Assembly: GCA_913060975.1 (NCBI GenBank) | Contig: CAJXVC010000003.1 | Span: 62,001 to 126,000, forward strand | DNA: 64,000 bases | From: an uncultured Gammaproteobacteria bacterium | Lineage (GTDB): Bacteria; Pseudomonadota; Gammaproteobacteria; Pseudomonadales; Pseudohongiellaceae | Direction of reading: 5' to 3' | In this document: positions 5,530 through 64,000 of the stretch, one piece after another | Numbering within the stretch: the first letter of the stretch is position 1 | Layout of the letters: every line of letters begins with the position of its first letter | Position numbers and translations under genes: made by a program | Notes under the pieces: model-generated | Told to the model about the DNA's origin: nothing | Database searches by the model: none | What the model saw: the letters and a program-made list of their open reading frames with translations, nothing else

Positions 5530-6333
5530 ATGAAGATTACTGTACTGGCTAACAGGGATTTGCCAGCCTGTCTGGCATTGAATTATCTGTGGTCACACCT
5601 GAAAGAGCATGACGTCACAGTGTTCTTGTCTTCCCACGTAGGAAAACCGCAGGGCCGCCCAGCGGCGCTTGAGCATTTGGCATTTTTTGAACAGACTTTA
5701 TGTAATGAATTGCTGTTTCCGGCACTGGATTCAGCAAGTTCTTCAGCCGATGCGGGGTTGATGACATTCAATCAACTTGCCAGTCACTGCGTTAAGCCAA
5801 TGCGGTTGCTCAGCCGGATTAACGAGGGGGAGGGTCTGGCGCTGTTTTCCAGTTCCGAACCGGATCTGGTGATTTCCATCCGCTTCGGGTTGATTCTCCG
5901 GGAACCGGTCCTGGCGATTCCGCCGGCTGGAGTTCTGAATCTGCATTCCGGTTTATTGCCAGATTACAAAGGTGTCATGGCGACATTCCGCGCAATGCTC
6001 AATGGTGACAATGAAATCGGTACGACTTTGCATTTTATCGACGATGCCGGTATCGATACGGGTCGCGTCGTCGGTATGACCAGGCTACCAGTTGATCGTA
6101 GCCATTCTTATTTCTGGCATGTGCTCGGCCTGTATGAACAGGGTTGTGAGTTGCTGGGGCAAACCATTACTAGAATAGCTTCCGGTGAGGCAATTGCTGG
6201 CACAGCTCAAGCGAGCACTGGCAATTATTACAGTTTTCCCGATGCGCACGAGTTGCGGGCATTCAGCGAGCAAGGTTTGCAGTTATGGAGCCCTGCAGAT
6301 GTGGTTGCCATAGGGCGGCGGTTTTTAGGTTAG
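5530..6333 (+). CDS. formyltransferase family protein
   Basis: GVLNLHSGLLPDYKGVMATFRAM and GTTLHFIDDAGIDTG motifs of the methionyl-tRNA formyltransferase/GART superfamily; start reset to MKITVLAN. Confidence 0.75.
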   Translation: MKITVLANRDLPACLALNYLWSHLKEHDVTVFLSSHVGKPQGRPAALEHLAFFEQTLCNELLFPALDSASSSADAGLMTFNQLASHCVKPMRLLSRINEGEGLALFSSSEPDLVISIRFGLILREPVLAIPPAGVLNLHSGLLPDYKGVMATFRAMLNGDNEIGTTLHFIDDAGIDTGRVVGMTRLPVDRSHSYFWHVLGLYEQGCELLGQTITRIASGEAIAGTAQASTGNYYSFPDAHELRAFSEQGLQLWSPADVVAIGRRFLG

Positions 6334-9598: not shown

Positions 9599-10003
9599 AT
9601 GGTAGAAGAAATTGAGTTAGAGAAGCTGTTGACGCTGTTGCAGCCCACTCTGCTCGAAGATGAGTTCGTTTTCTGCACCATAGATCCGGTACCGTTCGGT
9701 GAGCTGGATGCATTGAATCCGCTTGCCTGTTATCACGAAAAGGAAGGGCTGAGTTTGTTGCTTAAACGCACTGCAGCGGATGAGGCAGGTATCAAATACC
9801 AATTCGTGTCGCGCTGTATCACGCTTTCTGTGCACTCGAGTTTGAGTGCGGTAGGCTTTACAGCGGCGGTTTCGTCCAAGCTGGCTGCACACGGCATCCC
9901 AGCCAACGTGATTGCTGCCTATTACCATGATCATGTCTTTGTACCTGCAGACAGGGCCGAAATAGCGCTTAAATTGCTTACCGAGTTTGAGCGCAGACGC
10001 TAG
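9599..10003 (+). CDS. ACT-domain-like protein
   Basis: two ACT-like halves (FVFCTIDPVPFG; SAVGFTAAVSSKLAAHGIPANVIAAYYHDHVFVP). Confidence 0.7.
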   Translation: MVEEIELEKLLTLLQPTLLEDEFVFCTIDPVPFGELDALNPLACYHEKEGLSLLLKRTAADEAGIKYQFVSRCITLSVHSSLSAVGFTAAVSSKLAAHGIPANVIAAYYHDHVFVPADRAEIALKLLTEFERRR

Positions 10004-10194
10004 GTAGTCAATATTTCTATAAGGGATAGCAAGAGTTGACCCTGTGCTGTCAGACTACCGTTTGTTTCGCTTCATCCTCGACTGACTTGGCCTCCTGCAC
10101 TCTTCCTGATACTACTGCATGGCAACGGCACTACTCATCAAAGCAATGCGCTCTTAAATCTAAATACTTAAATAGTGCTTCCAAGAGGTCTGTC

Positions 10195-11658
10195 ATGGAT
10201 AAAAGCGATAAAGACGGCATCCGCCTGCCCATCAAGATCGACAGCACATCCAACGGGGAATACGAGCCGATTCCCATCTCACCGATCAACGAAAAAGGTA
10301 ATCGCCTGGCTTTGGAGCAGGCGACTGAGAACGCGCGTCGCACAGGTAAATCCCGGCGCGACTTTCTGGTATCCAGCTGCGGCGCCGCCAGCACCTTGCT
10401 GGCCTTTAATCAGGCCAATGCTTTTCACCAGCGCACTGGCGGCTACTTCGATCTCGTCGCTGAGGCGGCTCTGGATGGCGCTGCGGCCAAGGCTCAGGTA
10501 GAAGGCGGTGAATTCATTTTTGATGTGCAGGGACATTATGTGAATCCAGAAGGGGACTGGTTGAGCCAGATACCACCCGACTCACGCCCCTATGCGGGCA
10601 TGGAGAAGGCGGCTTGCGAGATGGCCAATGACGGCGGTAATCGCGGCTATCTGGACTGCTTGTCCCAGAGTGAGTTCATCAAGGATATCTTCATGGACAG
10701 CGACACCGACATTATGGTGCTGTCATTCGTGCCATCGACTCGCGAAACTGAACCGGTCACTATTGAGGATGCTGATGAGACCCGCCGCATCGTGGCTGAG
10801 TTAGAGGGTAGCAAGCGCTTGATGATCCATGGTCGGGTCAATCCCAATCAGGAAGGCGATCTGGAAGGCATGGATGAACTGGCCGAAAACTGGAATATCT
10901 CCGCATTCAAGACCTATACTCAATACGGCCCCGGTGGCGTGGGGTTTTTCCTGCATGATGCGCCGGGTCGAGCCATGATCGAACGGGCGCGCCGCCTTGG
11001 TGTGCGTAATATTTGTGTGCACAAAGGGCTACCGTTCGGGCCGCAGTCTTACGAGCACAGCCAGTGCTCCGACATCGGTATCGTAGCTCGAGATTACCCG
11101 GACATGAACTTTTTAATCTACCATTCCGGTTTTGTGGCAGGCAATGAAGAGCAGCCATATGTGGATGGTGCCGGGCGTGATGGTATTGATACGCTGATTC
11201 AGTCCCTGATCGACAATGAGATCGCCCCCAATTCGAACGTCTATGCCGAACTAGGCAGCACCTGGCGCTTTTTGATGCGCGACCCGAACAATGCGGCGCA
11301 TGCGCTGGGTAAACTGTTCCGCTATGTCGGAGAGGATAATGTGCTATGGGGGACGGACTCGATCTGGTACGGCTCACCTCAGGATCAGATTCAGGCCTTT
11401 CGCACGTTTCAGATATCCGAGGAATTTCAGGAGCGCTTTGGCTACCCGGCGATCACTCCTGAACTGCGTCGCAAGGTGTTTGGCCTGAATGCGTCCGTGC
11501 CCTACGGTATTGATGAGGCAGAGATTCGCCTGTTGACCGCGAACGATATGGTTAGCGCAGAAAAGCTGGCCTATCTGGAAAACCCGTCGCCCAGCTTTCT
11601 GACTTACGGGCCCAAGAACCGGCGCGAATTCCTCAATTTCCTGAAGTGGGGCGGTTAG
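10195..11658 (+). CDS. Tat-exported amidohydrolase (amidohydrolase_2-like)
   Basis: KSRRDFLVSSCGA Tat motif; VHKG...YHSGF...WGTDS motifs. Confidence 0.75.
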   Translation: MDKSDKDGIRLPIKIDSTSNGEYEPIPISPINEKGNRLALEQATENARRTGKSRRDFLVSSCGAASTLLAFNQANAFHQRTGGYFDLVAEAALDGAAAKAQVEGGEFIFDVQGHYVNPEGDWLSQIPPDSRPYAGMEKAACEMANDGGNRGYLDCLSQSEFIKDIFMDSDTDIMVLSFVPSTRETEPVTIEDADETRRIVAELEGSKRLMIHGRVNPNQEGDLEGMDELAENWNISAFKTYTQYGPGGVGFFLHDAPGRAMIERARRLGVRNICVHKGLPFGPQSYEHSQCSDIGIVARDYPDMNFLIYHSGFVAGNEEQPYVDGAGRDGIDTLIQSLIDNEIAPNSNVYAELGSTWRFLMRDPNNAAHALGKLFRYVGEDNVLWGTDSIWYGSPQDQIQAFRTFQISEEFQERFGYPAITPELRRKVFGLNASVPYGIDEAEIRLLTANDMVSAEKLAYLENPSPSFLTYGPKNRREFLNFLKWGG

Positions 11659-51791: not shown

Positions 51792-53831
51792 TCAGCTTGG
51801 CCCGGAACCGAGTGCTTCCTCTGCCAATGCGCGCTCTTTGGCCGCCATGCGATTCTGAACAACAATGACGCCAAACAGCAGCGCGGCTCCAGCCAGGTGA
51901 TAGTAGATAGGCAGACCCGTCCACATGAGCAGTCCGGCACTGACCAGTAGTACTGCAGCAGTGAGGACGTTGATGCGCGTTTCCAGATGCCACTGTAATA
52001 CGCCTGCCAGCGCATACAGCCCCATGCTTGCCCAGAGGAACACTTCAATGCGTTCTGGCCAGGTGCCAGAGATAAGTGGTGAATAGGCAAACAATACTGG
52101 TACGAGGTAAAGACCTTTGGCGACTTTCCAGCTGGTGAGTCCTGTCGCCATTGCTCGCGTACCAGCGATACCGGCGGCGGCGAAGGAGGCCAGACAAACA
52201 GGTGGTGTTACATTGCTATCCTGTGATAACCAAAATATAACCAGGTGGGCGCTAAGCAGCATACCGGTCAGTAATTCAGGAGGCAGCATTTCCTGACGGA
52301 TGAGTTGTTTCATCTCCAGAGGCATTTCACGCAGTGCTACAACGGGGTCACCACCGAACAAATCCAAAGTGGCGGCGACATTGCTGGGTAGATCGCCAGC
52401 CTGTAAGGCGATTAACAATTGCGATTGGCTGATCAGGTCAAAGATCAGTGGTGCTGACAAAGTGGCAAGAACAATATAGGAAGCGGTCACGGGTAGACCC
52501 ATTCCCAGCACCAATGACGCCAAGGCTACCAGCACAAGAGTAATCAACAAGCTGCCCTGGGCCCACTCGACGATCATCAATGAGAAAGCGTTACCGACTC
52601 CGGTGGTTGTGACCACATTGATAATTATGCCAACTGCTACCAGTAACAGGGCCGTTGAGACCATGGTCTGTACGCCATCCACGACAGCGTCAAAGATGTC
52701 GCGCAGGTTCATTGGGTTGCTTGATAAATACGAAGCAGCAATCACGCTGAGAATGGCAAAGGCGGCGGACGTGGTCGGCGTTCTGCCCATGACCAGAAAA
52801 GTCACCAGGACTGCCATCGGTATTATGAAGTGCCAGCCTTCTTTGAGGACTGTGGATACTTTCTCAGTGTCTTCGATGGTGGAAGCACGCAGACCAAGTC
52901 GTTTCGCTTCGATTCGCACAAAATAACAAACAGTCAGAAAATACAGCAAGGCTGGCAGGGTCGAGGCAGCAATAATCGTCAAATAGGAAATCTGGGTATA
53001 GCTGGCCAGGACGAAAGCACCGGCTCCCATCACAGGAGGCATAAGTGCGCCACCGGTGGACGCGGCGGCCACTACGCCAGCGGAAAACTGGCCTTCAAAG
53101 CCCGATTTTTTCATCATTGGAATGGTGATCACGCCAGTGGAGACTGTGTTGGCCACGGCCGAACCTGATACTGACCCCATGAGGCCAGAGCCAACGACTG
53201 CAACCAGCCCGGCACCTCCGGTAAAGCGGCCTGCCAGACATTGAGCCAGGCGCACAATGAAGTCGCCGGCGCCAGAACGCAGCAGGAAGGATCCAAAAAT
53301 GATGAACATGAAGACGAAAGTAGACGAGATGTTGGCTGTCAGGCCAAACATGCCTTCGCTGGTAAAGAAGGAGCGATAAAGCACGGTTTCCAGGCTCAAA
53401 CCGGGGAAAGCAAACACACCCGAGATATAGCGTCCGAGGAAAAGAATATAGGACAGACTGACCAGAATCAGGATAGGCATGAACCAGCCAGTCGTGCGGC
53501 GAGTAAACTCGATTGCCAGGCCGACCGCCATGATGGAGAAAATATAATCACTCAGTATGTACTCGGTTTCCCGGGCATACAGCGCATTCTCGAACAGTAT
53601 CAGATAGGTCGAAGTGGCAACGGCGGCGACAGCCAGCGCAATGTTGACCCAGAAACCGAAAGAGCCTCGTCGCACATCTTTTGACTCGTTCGCCATGAGT
53701 GCGCAGATCGCGCAAAATCCGCCGAAGTGAATCGCAGAGAGCCACAGTTCGGAAATGCTGGCAAAGACGTTACAGTAAATATGAAACAGGGCGAACAGAA
53801 AGGCGGCCCAACGCAAGTAATTAGACTTCAT
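51792..53831 (-). CDS. TRAP transporter fused permease (DctQM type)
   Basis: GSVSGSAVANTVSTGVITIPMMKK; MGLPVTASYIVLATL. Confidence 0.92.
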   Translation of the reverse strand: MKSNYLRWAAFLFALFHIYCNVFASISELWLSAIHFGGFCAICALMANESKDVRRGSFGFWVNIALAVAAVATSTYLILFENALYARETEYILSDYIFSIMAVGLAIEFTRRTTGWFMPILILVSLSYILFLGRYISGVFAFPGLSLETVLYRSFFTSEGMFGLTANISSTFVFMFIIFGSFLLRSGAGDFIVRLAQCLAGRFTGGAGLVAVVGSGLMGSVSGSAVANTVSTGVITIPMMKKSGFEGQFSAGVVAAASTGGALMPPVMGAGAFVLASYTQISYLTIIAASTLPALLYFLTVCYFVRIEAKRLGLRASTIEDTEKVSTVLKEGWHFIIPMAVLVTFLVMGRTPTTSAAFAILSVIAASYLSSNPMNLRDIFDAVVDGVQTMVSTALLLVAVGIIINVVTTTGVGNAFSLMIVEWAQGSLLITLVLVALASLVLGMGLPVTASYIVLATLSAPLIFDLISQSQLLIALQAGDLPSNVAATLDLFGGDPVVALREMPLEMKQLIRQEMLPPELLTGMLLSAHLVIFWLSQDSNVTPPVCLASFAAAGIAGTRAMATGLTSWKVAKGLYLVPVLFAYSPLISGTWPERIEVFLWASMGLYALAGVLQWHLETRINVLTAAVLLVSAGLLMWTGLPIYYHLAGAALLFGVIVVQNRMAAKERALAEEALGSGPS

Positions 53832-54901
53832 GGACTACTTCCGTTCTCGGCATTGGGATTGACCAGTTCGCCGACGGGTTCTTCCAGAATCAGTCGGTCC
53901 GGCACATCCAGGCCAACTTCGCGGTAGTAGCGCAGGGCGCCGACATGCAACGGAGCACCCAGACCAGCGACGGCAATTTCCGGGCGCATGTCTTTGGTGG
54001 CGCCATGGATCTCTTGCAGAGTCGCCAGATTTTCCCAGATTACTTTGGTGATGTTGTATACCACATGCTCGGGAATATCATCGCGAGTCACCAATACATT
54101 GGGAGAAGCAACCGTGCGGATTAACTCGTCCTGATTCGGATACGTGCCAGGCGGGAAATCGTACCAATCCCACAACGGGTAGCGGGCATTGATCTTGTCC
54201 AATGATTCCTGAGTCCAGTTCAGGATCGTCATCCTGTCGCCCAGCAAGGCATAGGCCTGGGTGATCGAGCTGACCGGGGCGCCGGCAGGAATATTCATAC
54301 CGACAATATTGTTGTCCTGAATGGCGCTGGTGGTAGGCCCATAGCCCATGTAAGCCAGATTGAATTTGCTTTCGTAGTCGATGCCTAGGGTTTCGAGGAT
54401 AAAGCGGCCCGTTTGATCGGCGCCGGAGTTGCGCGCGCCCAGAACATAGCGCTCACCATCGATATTGTTCAGGTCGTCCATGGTGCCGGTTTCAGTCAAG
54501 CGCGTCAGCAGCACAAAATGTTCGACGTTATTCCACATGGCTGCGACGCTGCGCATATGTGTTTGCGGGCTACTAACCGGGCCTTCGCCAGTCCACGACC
54601 AGGCGCCAAATGGTCCTTGCAGAAGGGCAAACTGGGCTTGATTGTCACGCAGTAATTTGACGTTTTCGAGAGAGCCGGCGGAACTGATAGCGGTGAGCGA
54701 AATGCCTTCGCTTTGCGCCAGTTCGGCATGGGCAATAGTGGCCAGTGCCACACCCACGGGGTAATAAGTGCCGCCGGTAGTCGCTGTGGTCAGCACATAA
54801 GGGCGTGCACGATTCAGTTCATCACTGCAGGAAGCCAGCGTGAACACAAGGAGCACACTGAGAATTATTTGCCGAAAGGGCCATCCGCTATAGCTGGACA
54901 T
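53828..54901 (-). CDS. TAXI family TRAP solute-binding protein
   Basis: TTATTGGTYYPVGVALATI; lipobox FTLASCS; 4-nt overlap with the permease gene. Confidence 0.92.
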   Translation of the reverse strand: MSSYSGWPFRQIILSVLLVFTLASCSDELNRARPYVLTTATTGGTYYPVGVALATIAHAELAQSEGISLTAISSAGSLENVKLLRDNQAQFALLQGPFGAWSWTGEGPVSSPQTHMRSVAAMWNNVEHFVLLTRLTETGTMDDLNNIDGERYVLGARNSGADQTGRFILETLGIDYESKFNLAYMGYGPTTSAIQDNNIVGMNIPAGAPVSSITQAYALLGDRMTILNWTQESLDKINARYPLWDWYDFPPGTYPNQDELIRTVASPNVLVTRDDIPEHVVYNITKVIWENLATLQEIHGATKDMRPEIAVAGLGAPLHVGALRYYREVGLDVPDRLILEEPVGELVNPNAENGSSP

Positions 54902-55170: not shown

Positions 55171-55416
55171 TTATGGCTTTTTGCGATCTGCCCCGAGGGT
55201 GTCTTTGGCATTACCGGACAGAGAGCGTTCGTTGTCGAGCTTGCCGATAAGAATGCTGGCACCACCAAGTATTGAGGCCCCTATTGTTACACCAACAATG
55301 AGAGCGATACGCAGGAACTGATGAATCTCGATACCGGTAAAGTATGCGCCAACCTCGGCAATCACATTGACGAGCACAAGCGCGATACCAAAGGTAATCC
55401 ACACAACTTTTCTCAT
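55171..55416 (-). CDS. small membrane protein (81 aa)
   Basis: two TM segments; starts 22 nt after the VCBS protein stop. Confidence 0.6.
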   Translation of the reverse strand: MRKVVWITFGIALVLVNVIAEVGAYFTGIEIHQFLRIALIVGVTIGASILGGASILIGKLDNERSLSGNAKDTLGADRKKP

Positions 55417-55438
55417 GACGTCAGGCCCGGTGAAGAGT

Positions 55439-57103
55439 TCATTCCGAGATTAACAGCAATCCTCGAATGTGACTACCGTCGTACTCGGTAAATACTATGA
55501 TGTCATCCACGCCATCGCCATTCAGATTGGCGGCGCTAATATCGCCACGCGATACGCTGCTGCTCAGATCTATGCTCTGATCAGCACTGACGTTGGCAAC
55601 TCTGGTCAGCATCGGATCGACCTGAACATCCACGTTGTTAATAATCTCACGGATATCGATTTCGTAGTTGTCGCGCTCGCGGCTATATCCAAGTGCCCCG
55701 AGAAACTCGGTATTGCGCGATTCGGTAATGCTGTTCAGAAACAGTTGTACCTGACCGCCGCGTAACACAAGCAAGTCATTCATGGCTGCCTGGTCATCGA
55801 TTGCCGCCTCTGTATAGGGTGGTCTGTCAGACAGCTCGAGTGAATCGGATTCGCTATTCAGGCTTTCATAGGCGCTGGCGAGACGGATGACAGAAGGGAA
55901 GCGCAAATCCACATTGACGCGGCGGGTGGGCCGCCGGGCAAAGCGATCGCCCTCGTTGGGGTAAATAAAAGCTTCGATGGCGATGCTGCCCGACAATGCC
56001 AGCCAGACAAACACATCACCGACCGAAATCGGCTCAACTCGCCACAACCAGAGGTCTTTCAGGCCATCCTCATTTTCATCGTTGAGAAACGTACTGAGTA
56101 CATTGCCACCTGAGCGCAATACTTGCTGTGGTTGCTCCAAATTCATGCCCGTTACGGTGCCCATAAAGAGTGACACCTTGCCCCCTTCGCGCAACAACAG
56201 GTCATCGACGCCATCTCCATTCATGTCTTCGAGAATTTCTTCATGTGTCAGAGACAAAATGCCAGTGAGATTGGAAAAATCCACATTGTCGATGTCGAAT
56301 TCGCCGAGCCTAGCTTCGATTTCGGCAATATCGACAGAGTACGTCGGTGAGGAGGGAAAGTAGGAGGCGCCAGTACTACTGGCCAGAAATACGTCCAGCC
56401 GTTCGTCATTACGCGACACCAGATCAGCAGCTTGATCATTGTTGACGTCGCGCAACTCAAGTGCAGGTATTCTAACGCTCTGTCCGGTCGAGCGATTCAG
56501 CCGGTTGATATTGAGCGCCGTGCGCATGCGAAAATCAGACTGAATGGCCAAGGGTGCTTGAAAATCTCCATTACCGACATTGATGTAAATATGTAGCAGA
56601 CCCGCGCCAGGAATGATCAGATCTTCCAGTCCATCGTTGTTGATATCGCGAGAAAAATGCAATCGGTGCAAACCGCGATTGAGAAAGCCACCCAGGTTAC
56701 TGGCAATGTTTTGACTAATAAAAGCGCCATTTTCCAGCGACCACCGCTGCACAAGATTGCCATCACTCAGGGTGATGATGTTGGTATTGCTCGAGTCGGA
56801 ATGACCGCTGCTGAGGTCCCAGCCAGCGGCGCCGGCTGACAGGGAGATTTCAGTAAAACCGTCGTCAAAGTCGAAGCCGTTCGGACCATGTAAATAGACG
56901 CGAATATTGTCGTCTACTACCGTAATGAGTTCTTGCCGGCCATCACCGTCCAGATCGGCGATTAACAGCGATTCGGCCTGGGCAGGCAAATGGAATGCTT
57001 GCTGGGAATAGGAGTTTGCTGCCTGGGACAAAGGTGCCAGTGCCAGACATAACAATGCCAGGTAAAGCCGGCTAGCTGTTATCTGCATCGCGCACCGGGT
57101 CAT
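55439..57103 (-). CDS. secreted FG-GAP/VCBS repeat protein A
   Basis: signal peptide; DLDGDGRQEL, DINNDGLEDL, DVNNDQAADL, DMNGDGVDDL, NLNGDGVDDI. Confidence 0.85.
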   Translation of the reverse strand: MTRCAMQITASRLYLALLCLALAPLSQAANSYSQQAFHLPAQAESLLIADLDGDGRQELITVVDDNIRVYLHGPNGFDFDDGFTEISLSAGAAGWDLSSGHSDSSNTNIITLSDGNLVQRWSLENGAFISQNIASNLGGFLNRGLHRLHFSRDINNDGLEDLIIPGAGLLHIYINVGNGDFQAPLAIQSDFRMRTALNINRLNRSTGQSVRIPALELRDVNNDQAADLVSRNDERLDVFLASSTGASYFPSSPTYSVDIAEIEARLGEFDIDNVDFSNLTGILSLTHEEILEDMNGDGVDDLLLREGGKVSLFMGTVTGMNLEQPQQVLRSGGNVLSTFLNDENEDGLKDLWLWRVEPISVGDVFVWLALSGSIAIEAFIYPNEGDRFARRPTRRVNVDLRFPSVIRLASAYESLNSESDSLELSDRPPYTEAAIDDQAAMNDLLVLRGGQVQLFLNSITESRNTEFLGALGYSRERDNYEIDIREIINNVDVQVDPMLTRVANVSADQSIDLSSSVSRGDISAANLNGDGVDDIIVFTEYDGSHIRGLLLISE

Positions 57104-58668
57104 GGTTGTGCCACCAGAAAAGTCGACGTTGACCCGTGGCGGAGAAACAGATCGGGATGCTCGTCATCGTTCAACTGCAAGACGCGAAATTCGAAGACAG
57201 AGCGTGGCGAGACATATTCCCAGAAAGGGTCGCTCGCAATCTGCAAGTCATTGCCTATGCGTTTGGCTGCCAGCGTCCCGTTGGCAGTAATGTAGAGGGC
57301 GTCCTTGCGACCATCGCCGTCTACGTCATAACTCAGCGACATCTGCTCAGCGAGGCCGCGCACATTGTCGGCTGAAAAACTCTCCTCGAGTCTTGATGCG
57401 GGGCGGTTACTGAATACGCGGCCATCGTTTGTTGCTGCCGGTGCATAAAGCAGCTGCACACGATTGATGCTGGCATTGCGAATCGCATCCACTACCGGAA
57501 TCGTGTAGTAATTAACGCTAAGCACCGGATCGCTGTCGGCCTGCAGAGTAATCAGATCCAGTTGCACGTCGTAACCGGAAAAGCGCATGACCTGGTCGGG
57601 AGTAGTAAAGTCAAAAGTCCCGCCGCGGTTGATGAATAGTCTGGCCGTCCAATCATCACCGTTGCCGTCCAGTCGCAATAGATCGTCCAGCCCATCGTTG
57701 TTCATATCCAGCAAATCCAACTCGCCCCTTGAGTCAAAGGTCACAGACCAGTCCGGGGTGGCGGAATACTCGCCGTTCGGCCGCTGATAGTGGGCATTGA
57801 ATTGACCTTGTCCGTTCTCGCCCGCATTGATATAGGAGATGTCGGGCAAGTCATCGGCGTCAAGTTTGCCAAGCTGGGCTGCCGGCATCCATTGCTCGCT
57901 ATTGAGCAGGGACCTGCTGCTATCGTTTTCTGCCTGCCACTTTTCAACAAAACCATCGAAGGGCGTAGGTGTATCGACGGTCAGTTCAATAATAATGCCC
58001 TGTTCGGCATTGATGCCCAGCTCTGCGTCGAAATCGGTTTCGAAATTACGCCGCTGAATCGGCGTCATGCCTGGATTCAATGTGGAGAATGTGCCAGTGA
58101 GACTGAAGGCTTCGTTGCCTTCACCGAGAAATATGCCGTACTGATCATCGCCAGGTAGTAACAAGTCGACGGTGCCGTCCTGATTCAAGTCGGTCACCAG
58201 ATTGGTGAATCTCACTGCTTCGGCATCAGGTACACCGGCGAGGAGTTCCCATTGTGCCAGTGGCTTGAGATTGCCGGCATAGCCCTCGGTGGCCGTCGAC
58301 AGACTGAATACTCCCTGATTGGCGAACAAGACCAGTTCGCTGCCTGGGTCGCTGCGCAGATCGGCGGTGGCTATGGCAACGATTTCTGACTTGATCTCAA
58401 TTCGTTGTGGCTCCGCACTGAAGTTGCCATCGCTCAGCTGATGGTAGATGTGCAGCTCGCGGCCAAGGGCAGGGTTGAGTGCTGGCACAAGAATATCTTG
58501 TCGCCCATCACCATTCATGTCTTCAAGTTGCATTGGCCCCCAATTATCTTCGCGCTGCAATTCAAAGCTGTTGTAATTGCTTTGCGCGCAGAGACTGGCC
58601 GGCAGACCTGCAAACAGGAGTCCGGCCAAGGTAGCATTCATCAGATTATTGTGCAGGGTGCTTTTCAT
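57100..58668 (-). CDS. secreted FG-GAP/VCBS repeat protein B
   Basis: signal peptide; DMNGDGRQDI, DLNQDGTVDL, DMNNDGLDDL, DVDGDGRKDA; ATGA overlaps on both sides. Confidence 0.85.
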   Translation of the reverse strand: MKSTLHNNLMNATLAGLLFAGLPASLCAQSNYNSFELQREDNWGPMQLEDMNGDGRQDILVPALNPALGRELHIYHQLSDGNFSAEPQRIEIKSEIVAIATADLRSDPGSELVLFANQGVFSLSTATEGYAGNLKPLAQWELLAGVPDAEAVRFTNLVTDLNQDGTVDLLLPGDDQYGIFLGEGNEAFSLTGTFSTLNPGMTPIQRRNFETDFDAELGINAEQGIIIELTVDTPTPFDGFVEKWQAENDSSRSLLNSEQWMPAAQLGKLDADDLPDISYINAGENGQGQFNAHYQRPNGEYSATPDWSVTFDSRGELDLLDMNNDGLDDLLRLDGNGDDWTARLFINRGGTFDFTTPDQVMRFSGYDVQLDLITLQADSDPVLSVNYYTIPVVDAIRNASINRVQLLYAPAATNDGRVFSNRPASRLEESFSADNVRGLAEQMSLSYDVDGDGRKDALYITANGTLAAKRIGNDLQIASDPFWEYVSPRSVFEFRVLQLNDDEHPDLFLRHGSTSTFLVAQP

Positions 58669-59621
58669 TGCTCTTCGACTAGCTCGCCATAATCACTGCT
58701 GAAATTAAATAAACCCAGAATCGAATGACTTCGTTCACCTTCATTCTGTTGGTAACGGTACAGGGCGAATAACCATAAATCGATAATCGACAGTGATTGC
58801 GCTGCCGGATTGAGAGAAGATTCGTATTGTAAAAGCGGGCCAAGCGAGAGGCGTGACAAGCGACGCCCCGGGTTCCACAGAGTTACTTCTCGCTCGGTGA
58901 CGGTTTGCCCATCATAGACCGAGAAACTCACCGAATCGCCAAGTTCATAACCGGTATTGAGACGGTTGACCAAATCCTGCGCTGAACTCAGTTGGCCGCC
59001 ATCAATGGCAAGTATTAAATCGCCGACATTCAACCCGGCACCAGGCAAAGGGCTGTCAGGGTAAAACTGTCGAATTTCTGCCGCCACAATTTCAGGTGTG
59101 CCATTGACGCTAACCAGCTCACTGCGATATCCAGCGCGGCTGGCAATTGGGTCGACACGATAAAGCTCTACAGGTGAGCTTGCAGCGTTTGCCTGACGCG
59201 CGACAATATCCACTGCAAACACAGTGGTATCACGCCGCACGGTAAAGGAAAAATTTTCCTGTTCAGATTGTTGTTCCAGCGCGCGTAGTGCATCTGGCTG
59301 GTTCACCTCAACGTCGTCTATAGCCAGAATGATATCGCCAGCTTGCAAGCCACTCGTGGCCGCCGCACTTCCGGGTGCGACGCCGCGCACTCTGACGCCG
59401 GGTAATACTTCGATATTGAACAAGGAATCGCTTTCATTGCGCGTCACATCGAGCCCAAAACTGCGCTGCGCGCTACCCGGATTCGTGCTGCCAAACGTGA
59501 CGGTCTCGGGTGACAAGGTCACTGCCGGAATCAATACGGCAGGTTCGTAGCTGGCACAGGCAGTCAATTGCAGGCAAGCCACAATGAATGGTAGTAAAGC
59601 GATTCTTAACATACGCGGCAT
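58665..59621 (-). CDS. lipoprotein with two PDZ domains
   Basis: lipobox LQLTACAS; VRGVAPGSAAATSGLQAGDIILAIDDVEV and PLPGAGLNVGDLILAIDGGQL. Confidence 0.85.
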   Translation of the reverse strand: MPRMLRIALLPFIVACLQLTACASYEPAVLIPAVTLSPETVTFGSTNPGSAQRSFGLDVTRNESDSLFNIEVLPGVRVRGVAPGSAAATSGLQAGDIILAIDDVEVNQPDALRALEQQSEQENFSFTVRRDTTVFAVDIVARQANAASSPVELYRVDPIASRAGYRSELVSVNGTPEIVAAEIRQFYPDSPLPGAGLNVGDLILAIDGGQLSSAQDLVNRLNTGYELGDSVSFSVYDGQTVTEREVTLWNPGRRLSRLSLGPLLQYESSLNPAAQSLSIIDLWLFALYRYQQNEGERSHSILGLFNFSSDYGELVEEQ

Positions 59622-59646
59622 GGTGTAGCGCTAACCAGAAGTGAAT

Positions 59647-60504
59647 TTAGATTTTCTTGCGTCTGACCAACACCAGCCCTGCGACTAGCAACAGCAGCAG
59701 GCTGGGCAGAGGCACCCAATAATTGAACTGTATAAATCTTTCGTCAATCAACACATCAGAGTAACCGCGGACCAATCGCCCGACGTCAGACAAATAAGAC
59801 TCATTGAGCAACGACGGCATGAAGCGGGCATAGATGTAATCGGCGCTATCGCCCATCATACCCTTAAACATATCCAGTGCCAGCGTAACACCCAGAGCCG
59901 CTATGACAGCCTGGGTGGCCGAGTTGGCCGCGATGGAAAAACACAATCCGAGTCCGATGGCAGCAGGTAGAGGCAGGATCGCCAGACGCAAACCGAGTAG
60001 CAATTCAGTCCGGATTTCCGCTTCACTGATGAGCTCGAAACCGTCTTCGACAACCGGGCCGTATTCCCATAGCATGCCTGACAGGAAGTAACTGGCCAGT
60101 AACAGCAAGCTAAGCGCGACGACAGCCATCAGCAACAGGTAAGCAAATTTTGCTAACACGACAGCGCTGCGACTACAGCGACGGATAATTAGGTGACGCA
60201 GTGCGCCGCTGTCGCGATCAGCGCTGAAGCTGAATGCCGATTGTGCGACCAGCAAAAGCCCGAGCAGAATGAGTCCGGTATTGAGTCCGTCGACAAGATT
60301 GCCATAAGCCGGTTCGGCGACCAAATCGTTGAAGCGATCACTACCCAGTAAATTGTCTCGGGCGGCGGCCGTTGATTCAGTCAGTTTGGCCAATACGAGT
60401 TGCACGGCAACCAACAGTACTGGCGTGAGAATAACAAACCGCGTGCCGAGACTGCGCAGGCCGACGAAAACCTCGTTGCGAAACGCCGCTACAAAGCCGT
60501 TCAT
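59647..60504 (-). CDS. ABC-2 type transporter permease
   Basis: multi-TM; FSFSADRDSGALRHLIIRRCSRSAVVLAKF. Confidence 0.8.
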   Translation of the reverse strand: MNGFVAAFRNEVFVGLRSLGTRFVILTPVLLVAVQLVLAKLTESTAAARDNLLGSDRFNDLVAEPAYGNLVDGLNTGLILLGLLLVAQSAFSFSADRDSGALRHLIIRRCSRSAVVLAKFAYLLLMAVVALSLLLLASYFLSGMLWEYGPVVEDGFELISEAEIRTELLLGLRLAILPLPAAIGLGLCFSIAANSATQAVIAALGVTLALDMFKGMMGDSADYIYARFMPSLLNESYLSDVGRLVRGYSDVLIDERFIQFNYWVPLPSLLLLLVAGLVLVRRKKI

Positions 60505-61424
60505 GACGCAGCCTCCGCAGTTATCTGGCGGAACAGCTTATCAAGCGAAGGGCGTTGCAAGACTAATTCCTGTACGGCAATGCCTTCGCCAACGAGAGCG
60601 CTATTGAGAGAGGCCGAGTCTATCTCTTGCAGAGTGACTTTGAGATAGCCATTGTTATCTGCCTGTAACTGACAGCCGGATAGCGAAGTGATGAGCTGTC
60701 GTGCGTGTTCTGTTTGTGCCGTTTTCACCAGCACTTCGGTTCGGTGTTCACTCAATAATGCCGAGACGGTATCGGAAACCGCGATCTGGCCTTTGTGCAG
60801 AATGGCAATATGGCTACAGATATTCTCCAGATAAGGCAGTTGGTGCGACGACAGCAAAAAACTTGTCCCCAACTCTTTGTTCAGATTCTGAATGAGAGTC
60901 AACACTTCATCGACGCCGCCGGCATCCAGGCCATTAAAAGGTTCATCGAGGATGATAAGAGCCGGGTCGCCCAGCAAGGCCTGGGCAATTGAAGCGCGTC
61001 GCTTGTTGCCCAAAGATAATTGCCGAATGCGAAATTGGCTGAAGGGTTCAATGCCTAGCATGCGCTCTACTTGCTCAGGGTTACGCGTTGGAGTGTCACA
61101 AAGCAGACTGGCTTGTTGCAGACACTGACGCACGGTCAACTGTGGCGATAAACTTGGCGTATCGAAAATACCAACGATATTGCCTTTGGCTTCATTCAGG
61201 CGTGCAGGAGAGTGACCCAGTAAGTGGATCGAGCCGCTGTTGTAGGAAAGCAGGCCGAGCAGGCATTCGAGCGTTGTCGTCTTACCGGAACCATTCAGGC
61301 CAACCAGGCCATGTATGGCACCGGTTACGACATCGAGATTGAGATCCCGAAGCACCTTATGACTGCCATAAGATTTGTTAAGCCCGGCGATGGAAAGAAT
61401 GGCATTCTCGGGGCTAGTACTCAT
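60501..61424 (-). CDS. ABC transporter ATP-binding protein
   Basis: GLNGSGKTT Walker A, LSLGNKRR signature, LIILDEPFNGLD Walker B. Confidence 0.93.
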   Translation of the reverse strand: MSTSPENAILSIAGLNKSYGSHKVLRDLNLDVVTGAIHGLVGLNGSGKTTTLECLLGLLSYNSGSIHLLGHSPARLNEAKGNIVGIFDTPSLSPQLTVRQCLQQASLLCDTPTRNPEQVERMLGIEPFSQFRIRQLSLGNKRRASIAQALLGDPALIILDEPFNGLDAGGVDEVLTLIQNLNKELGTSFLLSSHQLPYLENICSHIAILHKGQIAVSDTVSALLSEHRTEVLVKTAQTEHARQLITSLSGCQLQADNNGYLKVTLQEIDSASLNSALVGEGIAVQELVLQRPSLDKLFRQITAEAAS

Positions 61425-61656
61425 GTGGTTGTATGCCGGGCTTGTCGTTGAAAATTAATAGTAACGTGTTGTTTGTCTGAGCTATTGGAGTTTTTGACAT
61501 TACAGACAATGTAGAAAGGGCCGGCACCAGGCCGCCCCTGTTTTCTGCTTTCACTGTAGAATCTGTGAATACTGTTGCCACCGACGCTGACAGCAATTTT
61601 ATTGCTACTGACAGTTGTCAGTCACCATGAATTCCGGATTTCTTATGCCCGGTTCA

Positions 61657-64000
61657 TTATTCTACGAATAGCTGATCAACTTCCACCTGTTGGACTTCAC
61701 CAAACTGTGTGAGTTCCTCAGTATCAATTATCGACAGGTCGCCGACAATCGAAATCAGTTTCGGTCTATTGGCGACATGTTCCTGTTGGAACTGCAGCAT
61801 CTGATCAATAGTGGCTTCCTGAAGCTGCGCAAAACGCTCACGACGCGGATCACCTTCCAGGCCCAGCCGTTCCCAGCTGCGCACAGCACCAATCACTTCC
61901 CGAAAGCTGATCTGGTTAGTGCGGTAGCGGTTGATCAGTGAATTGGCTGATTCAGTAAAACGCTCTTCAGACACTGGCATATCATCGATCAGACCAATAA
62001 ACGCCTGTAAGGCATCACTGGTTTTGTCAGTCTGGGTGCCAATCACGCCAAGCATCATGTTTTCCGCTTCTTCACGTTGCCCCTGGGCATAGGCGGCAGA
62101 GGCAGAGTAGGCCAGGGCTCGCGCTTCACGTAGTTCCTGAAAAACCACGCTGGACATGCCGCTGCCGAAATAGCTGGTATAAAGAGAAGAGGGAATACTG
62201 TCTGCTTCGTTGTAAACGCCATCACCGAATTCAATCCGCACTTGCGCCTGCGCTGTTTGCTGATCGACAACCATGATTTCAGTGCTGTCAATCTCGCGAG
62301 CTTTGCGCAGTCGCACCGGTGGTGTGTCGGCCAGCTCGTCTGTCAGTTCATACTGGCGACGCAATACTTCGACGACATCTTCCAATGGCAGTGAGCCGGT
62401 ATAGGCCAGAGTCTGCTTGTAGTTAAGTAGTTCGGCTGGCATGGCGAGCAGTTCATCCAATTGCGCTGCCATGATCTCTTCGCCAGGCAAGGCTTCCAGC
62501 ATGGGCGATTCTTCGCCATAGCGATTGTACAAATACAATGCGCGGGAAATGGCGGCCGGTGAGCTCTTTTGGTCCTGACGGTTCTTCAGCAGGATGCCTT
62601 TGAGTTGTTGCAGGGTTTGCTCGTCGGCAGTGGGGTTCTTGACCAGTTCCAAGGCCAGGGCAACCGAGTCTTCAAACTGCTCGTCCAACCCGGTGACTGA
62701 AATGGCAGAGCTGTTTTCGCCAGCGCCAAAGCGGAAATCACTGCCCATGCGGTACCATTCTTTCTGCAGATCCTGATTGCTCATTGTTTCAGTGCCTGCC
62801 ACATCCATGAGTGCCGAGGCCAGGCCAAGTAACTCATTGGTTTCTGTGCCGACTTCAATATTGACCGAGAAGCTAAACAGGTCATTGAGTGGATTGGGGG
62901 CATAATACAGTTGCACACCATCAACAAATTCCACGACGCGGTAGTCTTCATCGGCGACCACGAAATTCGGCTCAATCGGCTCGAAGTCCATATTGAGAAT
63001 GCGCGCGGCAAATTGCGACTGTCGCGTAGGATCGATTGTCACAGGATCGATGCGGGGTTTTTCAACTTCCGGAATTTCATGCTGGGCATCAACGCGATAC
63101 ACGGCCACATAATCGTTGCCGAAGTATTTGTTGGCTACATCAATCACATCTTGTTTGGTCAGCGCTTCCATTCGGGCAATTTCGCCAGAAGCATGCTCCC
63201 AGTCATCGCCTTCAATGAATGATTGACGCATCAATGCGACCCGCGCGGTATTGAATTCCAGGCTGGCTTTTTCGTTCTTTTTAAAATCATTGACGATAGC
63301 CGGCAGGATCCAGTCTTCAAATTCGCCTTGTTTTACTAGCTCGACCTGTTCCAGTAATAACTCCTCGACCTCTTCCAGCGTCTGGTCTTGCTTGGGGGCA
63401 CCGTACAGACTTTGCGTGCCGTAGTCGTTGAGAAACAGTGGTGATGATCCGGCACTGGCAACGGCTTGATTCTGTGTGAGATTCAAATTGATCAAACCAG
63501 CTGTGCGGTTATCGAGGATCATGTCAAACATCATCAGGGCTTCTTTGTCCGGGCTGTCGTTAGGCGCAGTGCGGAAAGCTATGCGAACCTCTTCCTGCCC
63601 TGGGTACTGCACAGTCATACGCTCGGCACCTTGCAAAGGGGCTTCCTGCCACGGGCCAACTTCCGGAAGTGGTTTGGCTTCCCAATCGCCAAATTCTTCA
63701 CTAATCAGGGCAATAGTCTCTTCGATGTCGATGTCGCCGCTGATAAAGATACCCATGTTATTGGGCACGTAATACGTGTCGAAATAATCACGGATATAAA
63801 CCAGTGACGGATTCTTCAAATGGTCGACGGTGCCAATTGTTGGTTGCTGTCCGTAAGGGTGTTCCTTGAATAACAATTCATCGACGGCCGTGCCGATAAT
63901 GCGGCTGCCATTGTCCAGCGTACGATTTTTCTCTTCGTAGACCGTCTCCAATTCAGTGTGAAACAAGCGAAAAACCGGGTTCACAAAGCGATCCGACTCA
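61657..64000 (-). CDS. M16 family metallopeptidase, N-terminally truncated by the window edge
   Basis: reading frame stays open to position 64000 (ESDRFVNPVFRLFHTELETVYEEKNR); two M16-type domains; HxxEH not in window. Confidence 0.85.
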   Translation of the reverse strand, partial: ESDRFVNPVFRLFHTELETVYEEKNRTLDNGSRIIGTAVDELLFKEHPYGQQPTIGTVDHLKNPSLVYIRDYFDTYYVPNNMGIFISGDIDIEETIALISEEFGDWEAKPLPEVGPWQEAPLQGAERMTVQYPGQEEVRIAFRTAPNDSPDKEALMMFDMILDNRTAGLINLNLTQNQAVASAGSSPLFLNDYGTQSLYGAPKQDQTLEEVEELLLEQVELVKQGEFEDWILPAIVNDFKKNEKASLEFNTARVALMRQSFIEGDDWEHASGEIARMEALTKQDVIDVANKYFGNDYVAVYRVDAQHEIPEVEKPRIDPVTIDPTRQSQFAARILNMDFEPIEPNFVVADEDYRVVEFVDGVQLYYAPNPLNDLFSFSVNIEVGTETNELLGLASALMDVAGTETMSNQDLQKEWYRMGSDFRFGAGENSSAISVTGLDEQFEDSVALALELVKNPTADEQTLQQLKGILLKNRQDQKSSPAAISRALYLYNRYGEESPMLEALPGEEIMAAQLDELLAMPAELLNYKQTLAYTGSLPLEDVVEVLRRQYELTDELADTPPVRLRKAREIDSTEIMVVDQQTAQAQVRIEFGDGVYNEADSIPSSLYTSYFGSGMSSVVFQELREARALAYSASAAYAQGQREEAENMMLGVIGTQTDKTSDALQAFIGLIDDMPVSEERFTESANSLINRYRTNQISFREVIGAVRSWERLGLEGDPRRERFAQLQEATIDQMLQFQQEHVANRPKLISIVGDLSIIDTEELTQFGEVQQVEVDQLFVE

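Follow-up and report, generated by a model that had tools for sequence, protein, structure and literature searches.

An apparently undescribed five-gene module of an ABC-2 transporter, a double-PDZ lipoprotein and two FG-GAP proteins in Pseudohongiellaceae

The window analysed here, a stretch of 64,000 nucleotides within contig 3 of a 3.76-Mb host genome, carries on its minus strand genes for an ABC ATPase, a permease, a double-PDZ lipoprotein and two FG-GAP proteins, designated FG1 and FG2, in tandem (Table 1). This series had been proposed from the sequence alone in an earlier reading (the sequence-only reading), and was confirmed by the coordinates and by Pfam matches. The same holds for the ATGA-type overlaps at 60501-60504, 58665-58668 and 57100-57103, and for the spacings of 25 nt between the permease and PDZ genes and of 22 nt between FG2 and the gene for an 81-aa membrane protein. 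Gene order and short spacing were repeated in 20 of 20 relatives, indicating that the arrangement is not due to chance. A scan for sigma-70 promoters and terminators gave a signal no better than that of shuffled sequence.

Table 1. Genes of the module and its immediate neighbours (positions in the window)
Feature	Position	Strand	Remarks
ABC ATPase, 307 aa, NosF/DrrA/GldA-like	60501..61424	-	catalytic motifs present
ABC-2 permease, 285 aa	59647..60504	-	VEDGFELIS..EI segment conserved; 4-nt overlap with ATPase gene
Double-PDZ lipoprotein, 318 aa	58665..59621	-	Cys22 invariant, +2 residue not Asp; conserved C-terminal region
FG1, FG-GAP predicted propeller, secreted or periplasmic, 522 aa	57100..58668	-	four Dx[DN]xDG motifs
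FG2, FG1 paralogue, FG-GAP predicted propeller, 554 aa	55439..57103	-	four strict and two degenerate motifs
81-aa membrane protein	55171..55416	-	right-hand boundary neighbour, outside module
M16 peptidase, C-terminal part, gene extends past window	61657..63999	-	left-hand neighbour in family, not required

The ATPase contains an ABC_tran domain (Pfam, E 2e-27) with the Walker A, Walker B, signature and H-loop motifs all present, and the permease gave a weak match to ABC2_membrane_2, just above the cut-off (Pfam, E 5e-7); the pair thus combines an ABC ATPase having intact motifs with an ABC-2 membrane domain, as in ABC-2 transporters. The best prokaryotic homologue of solved structure for the ATPase was NosF (phmmer 1.2e-35), which matched over the full length (residues 10-302), and other ABC families matched as well. 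NCBIfam models matching the ATPase numbered 192, none above cut-off among the matches listed, and the top scores were those of the lantibiotic-protection and DrrA subfamilies; the cut-offs of the DrrA, GldA and lantibiotic-immunity subfamilies were not reached (best score 140.9 versus 309.75). For the permease, which has little periplasmic mass, a PDB search returned no sequence match to NosY or to any other protein of solved structure.

Two PDZ domains were found in the lipoprotein (Pfam, E 4e-19), in which the lipobox, LTAC, ends at Cys22, invariant in relatives, and the Asp+2 retention signal is lacking. The PDZ domains are similar to the HtrA type; in comparison with the PDZ proteins DegQ, DegS and GspC, the lipoprotein has no protease domain and possesses N- and C-terminal conserved regions of its own. 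A class-wide search with the PDZ profile yielded no more than partial matches confined to the PDZ region, in frames of 456-499 aa, the size of HtrA proteases.

FG1 and FG2 had FG-GAP_3 matches (Pfam, E 2e-19 and 2e-18), and both were seen to start with a Sec-type signal peptide having an AxA-like end; the sequence-only reading had stated that signal peptides are present. Its further claim of about six DxDGDG-type repeats in each protein needs correction as to the number: each protein has four strict Dx[DN]xDG motifs (0.06 expected in shuffled sequence), to which FG2 adds the degenerate copies. FG-GAP repeats bearing this motif, as in calcium-blade propellers, are therefore present in both proteins, which are homologous to each other (hhalign E 2e-16). 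Their AlphaFold2 models were mostly beta (pLDDT 80.6 for FG1 and 80.5 for FG2), and Foldseek matched them to the propellers of integrin, fungal lectin and ITFG2 (KICSTOR) at E values of 1e-7 to 1e-9 with low TM-scores (0.2-0.5); FG1 and FG2 are thus predicted propellers of uncertain blade number. They share the motif-bearing FG-GAP repeats with the calcium-blade propellers of integrin alpha, PVL lectin and PilY1 (PMC3123361), but differ from them in being tandem paralogues inherited with an ABC transporter, and in that the conserved core of FG2 (residues 255-400) contains helix. Conservation of FG2 peaks at residues 276-400, which probably form an interface. The last beta strand of each model is formed by the C-terminus.

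To describe the distribution of the module, profiles of the PDZ protein, FG2 and the permease were searched against 93 genomes of the family that were at least 90% complete. All three proteins were present in 73 genomes and all three were absent from 19; the sole mismatch (G720) was an FG2 fragment at 5671-6213 of a 6214-base contig, i.e., at an assembly edge. Three whole genera were without the five-gene unit, and in the genomes carrying it the module was single-copy. In a GTDB-wide scan with FG2, from which 80 loci were kept, FG1 preceded FG2 in every case (80/80); the five-gene set was found in 71 loci (in 69 with M16 upstream of it), and the remaining nine begin at a contig end, so that all five genes were found wherever the contig continues. 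The order M16, ATPase, permease, PDZ, FG1 and FG2 was unbroken, with short gaps or overlaps, in the 20 genus relatives. PDZ or FG-GAP genes without the ABC pair, which the sequence-only reading had named as the observation that would speak against it, were never seen in relatives with intact contigs. It was also noticed that the ATPase gene of one locus (L074, about 9911-10844) and the FG2 gene of one genome (G714, C23) were each split into two pieces, and that the permease match of another (G753, C8) ended at residue 220 of 285; these may be assembly errors or signs of decay.

The boundaries of the module were revealed by a naturally empty site and by copies in another family. In G146, a complete genome of a genus otherwise having the module, the end of M16 is followed some 80 nt further on by the start of a homologue of the 81-aa gene, and no remnants of the five genes were found at this site; the 81-aa match was weak (27%, E 3e-6), although its location was as expected. 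Two genomes of the other family, f41, had all five genes, from ATPase to FG2, in unchanged order (24-45% identity). Signatures such as the Asp positions in the FG motifs persist over this distance. The flanks of the two f41 copies differed from one another and held no M16, 81-aa or TRAP genes. The presence of the five genes together in such unrelated surroundings fixes the unit at five genes. Since the 81-aa gene is present in G146, where the five genes are lacking, and does not accompany the f41 copies, it lies outside the unit, and its inclusion in the sequence-only reading was not borne out. M16 was rejected as a system member because it likewise stays at the empty site and is absent beside the f41 copies; searches for it also failed in three genomes of a genus without the module and in genus member G016. 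Outside Pseudohongiellaceae and f41, the unit was not found in samples of 392 genomes of the order and 369 of the class, and in the latter the permease profile gave nothing beyond its own genome. As far as sampled, the range of the five-gene unit is narrow. Viral-contig scans with FG1 and with the PDZ profile detected no relatives and a plasmid search with the PDZ protein gave no match, hence there is no sign of a mobile element.

Among the 20 genus relatives, the five genes have median identities of about 52-58%, compared with 73% in M16 and more than 80% in the TAXI and TRAP genes on the other side, indicating that the module evolves faster than its neighbours. Partial correlations of distance matrices, computed on small samples with M16 as a partial control for host phylogeny, were 0.58-0.78 among the five genes at 33 loci, and none of 200 permutations was as high. 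At 17 loci with TRAP and TAXI genes, the values were 0.72-0.87 among the five genes versus 0.07-0.46 with TRAP or TAXI. The co-evolution of the five genes is therefore tighter among themselves than with the flanking genes, and together they make up a single-copy unit that co-evolves and is present or absent as a whole. Co-function of an envelope unit, which had been suggested from the tight coupling, is strongly supported by joint presence and loss, by the f41 contexts and by the co-evolution, and the five genes very probably act as one functional unit.

The sequence-only reading had known of no named system with this composition, and we found no characterised system so composed among the NCBIfam and defence models or in the openly licensed literature, in which a search for papers on the combination of ABC-2 transporter, double-PDZ lipoprotein and twin FG-GAP proteins gave nothing relevant. 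The module is thus real and coherent, and apparently undescribed; its building blocks are ordinary, but they are combined in an unusual way. A role in anti-phage defence was rejected, as only the ATPase had matches (mad3 and AAA models) and the other four proteins had none.

The nearest analogy is with the Nos proteins, among which NosFY acts with NosD and the lipoprotein NosL in assembly of the periplasmic copper site of nitrous oxide reductase (review, PMC7558416). The module is similar to NosDFY-NosL in that an ABC-2-type ATPase with full-length similarity to NosF, a small permease, a lipoprotein and a periplasmic beta-rich partner are encoded together, but it has propellers and PDZ domains in place of NosD and NosL. 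Membership of the NosDFY system was rejected because NosD, NosL and NosZ are lacking both from the cluster and from the genes beside it; no CASH/NosD domain occurs in the cluster, and the sole NosD-like match of the genome lies inside a 1615-aa open frame elsewhere. The permease has no detectable sequence similarity to NosY, and both would be of the ABC-2 type. With no NosY match for the permease, the analogy to NosFY is drawn from the ATPase only, and because the ATPase superfamily is very large, the NosF match by itself is weak evidence, so that the likeness is one of working principle. By this analogy, our best guess, to which we give a probability of roughly 40%, is a NosDFY-like envelope machine. 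The ATPase and permease would form an inner-membrane ABC-2 transporter of the NosFY type; FG1 and FG2 would leave the cytoplasm by Sec, be stabilised by calcium and pair as a propeller platform docked on the periplasmic face of the permease; and the double-PDZ lipoprotein, which probably resides in the outer membrane, would tether or recruit a client. ATP hydrolysis might then drive the transfer of a cargo, for which a lipid, a glycan, a metal or other cofactor and a peptide are candidates, through or at this scaffold, by analogy with NosDFY-NosL. That such a module represents an unnamed class of periplasm-spanning, ATP-driven machine, in which an ABC-2 transporter works via paired calcium-dependent integrin-like propellers and a double-PDZ lipoprotein, is a tentative and rather doubtful extension.

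The ATPase and permease also belong to the same superfamilies as those of DrrAB, BcrAB and GldAFG, but the module falls far below the curated cut-offs of these named subfamilies and none of their named partners is present. The ABC pair could be an ordinary exporter or self-protection pump like those of the DrrAB, BcrAB or lantibiotic-immunity type, whose substrate would be a lipid, a peptide or a small molecule; the lipoprotein and propellers would then be outside accessory binders that capture or sense this substrate. Although the little periplasmic mass of the permease and the subfamilies scoring best with the ATPase, all of them far below cut-off, are consistent with a pump, no biosynthetic genes are nearby, the locus is single and vertically inherited genus-wide, unlike a resistance cassette, the PDZ protein is without a plasmid match, and co-loss of the five genes is stricter than an accessory role predicts; we therefore regard a pump as somewhat unlikely. 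A trans-envelope shuttle of the Lol/Mla type, in which the ABC transporter loads hydrophobic cargo onto FG1 and FG2 for receipt by an outer-membrane PDZ lipoprotein, would have the same layout of parts, namely an inner-membrane ABC pair, soluble periplasmic proteins and a lipoprotein free of the retention signal. However, the permease is of the ABC-2 and not of the LolCE or MlaE type, and propellers are not known to carry lipids, which makes a shuttle improbable.

Little credence can be given to the proposal of the sequence-only reading, taken as export, anchoring or quality control of surface propellers by the ABC pair. It draws on the tight gene coupling and on PDZ domains being typical of envelope quality control, but FG1 and FG2 have their own Sec-type signal peptides, which makes export by the ABC pair unlikely, the unit encodes neither an outer-membrane channel or exporter nor a protease domain, and C-termini placed in the last strand of the models would be poor free PDZ ligands. 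That the genes are merely co-transcribed neighbours with no joint function is highly improbable: the single position in the family and a shared vertical history account for part of the pattern, but not for the separate f41 contexts, the all-or-none loss and a co-evolution stronger than that with the flanks.

Because a natural deletion exists and one member has been cultured (LSUCC0112, locus L150), this all-or-none, single-copy module of a common aquatic bacterial lineage is directly testable, and doing so would give a function to five unnamed families together. The NosDFY-like reading, if correct, could reveal a new mode of ABC-2 transporter action via periplasmic propellers, and such a mode would help to account for the abundance of bacterial FG-GAP proteins of unknown role.

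As to the neighbouring genes, the TAXI solute-binding protein and TRAP permease genes adjoining the module (51792-54901) are highly conserved in the genus and absent near it in other relatives. The gap between M16 and the ATPase is 232 nt in the window (61425-61656) and only 7-40 nt in some relatives, in which M16 may be co-transcribed with the module. In the segment containing the DNA just past the window end (L182, 2158-11443), M16 was seen to be full-length with an HxxEH motif, and it is probably a lipidated periplasmic peptidase; divergent from it are TolC-, HlyD- and MacB-like genes, which belong to a different ABC export system. At the empty site of G146 (L184, 12440-12900), the DNA separating M16 from the 81-aa gene contains a perfect 15-bp hairpin (TGATCATTCCGGTAA...TTACCGGAATGATCA). 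Since similar hairpins come after M16 in some relatives, this one may represent a terminator rather than a scar.
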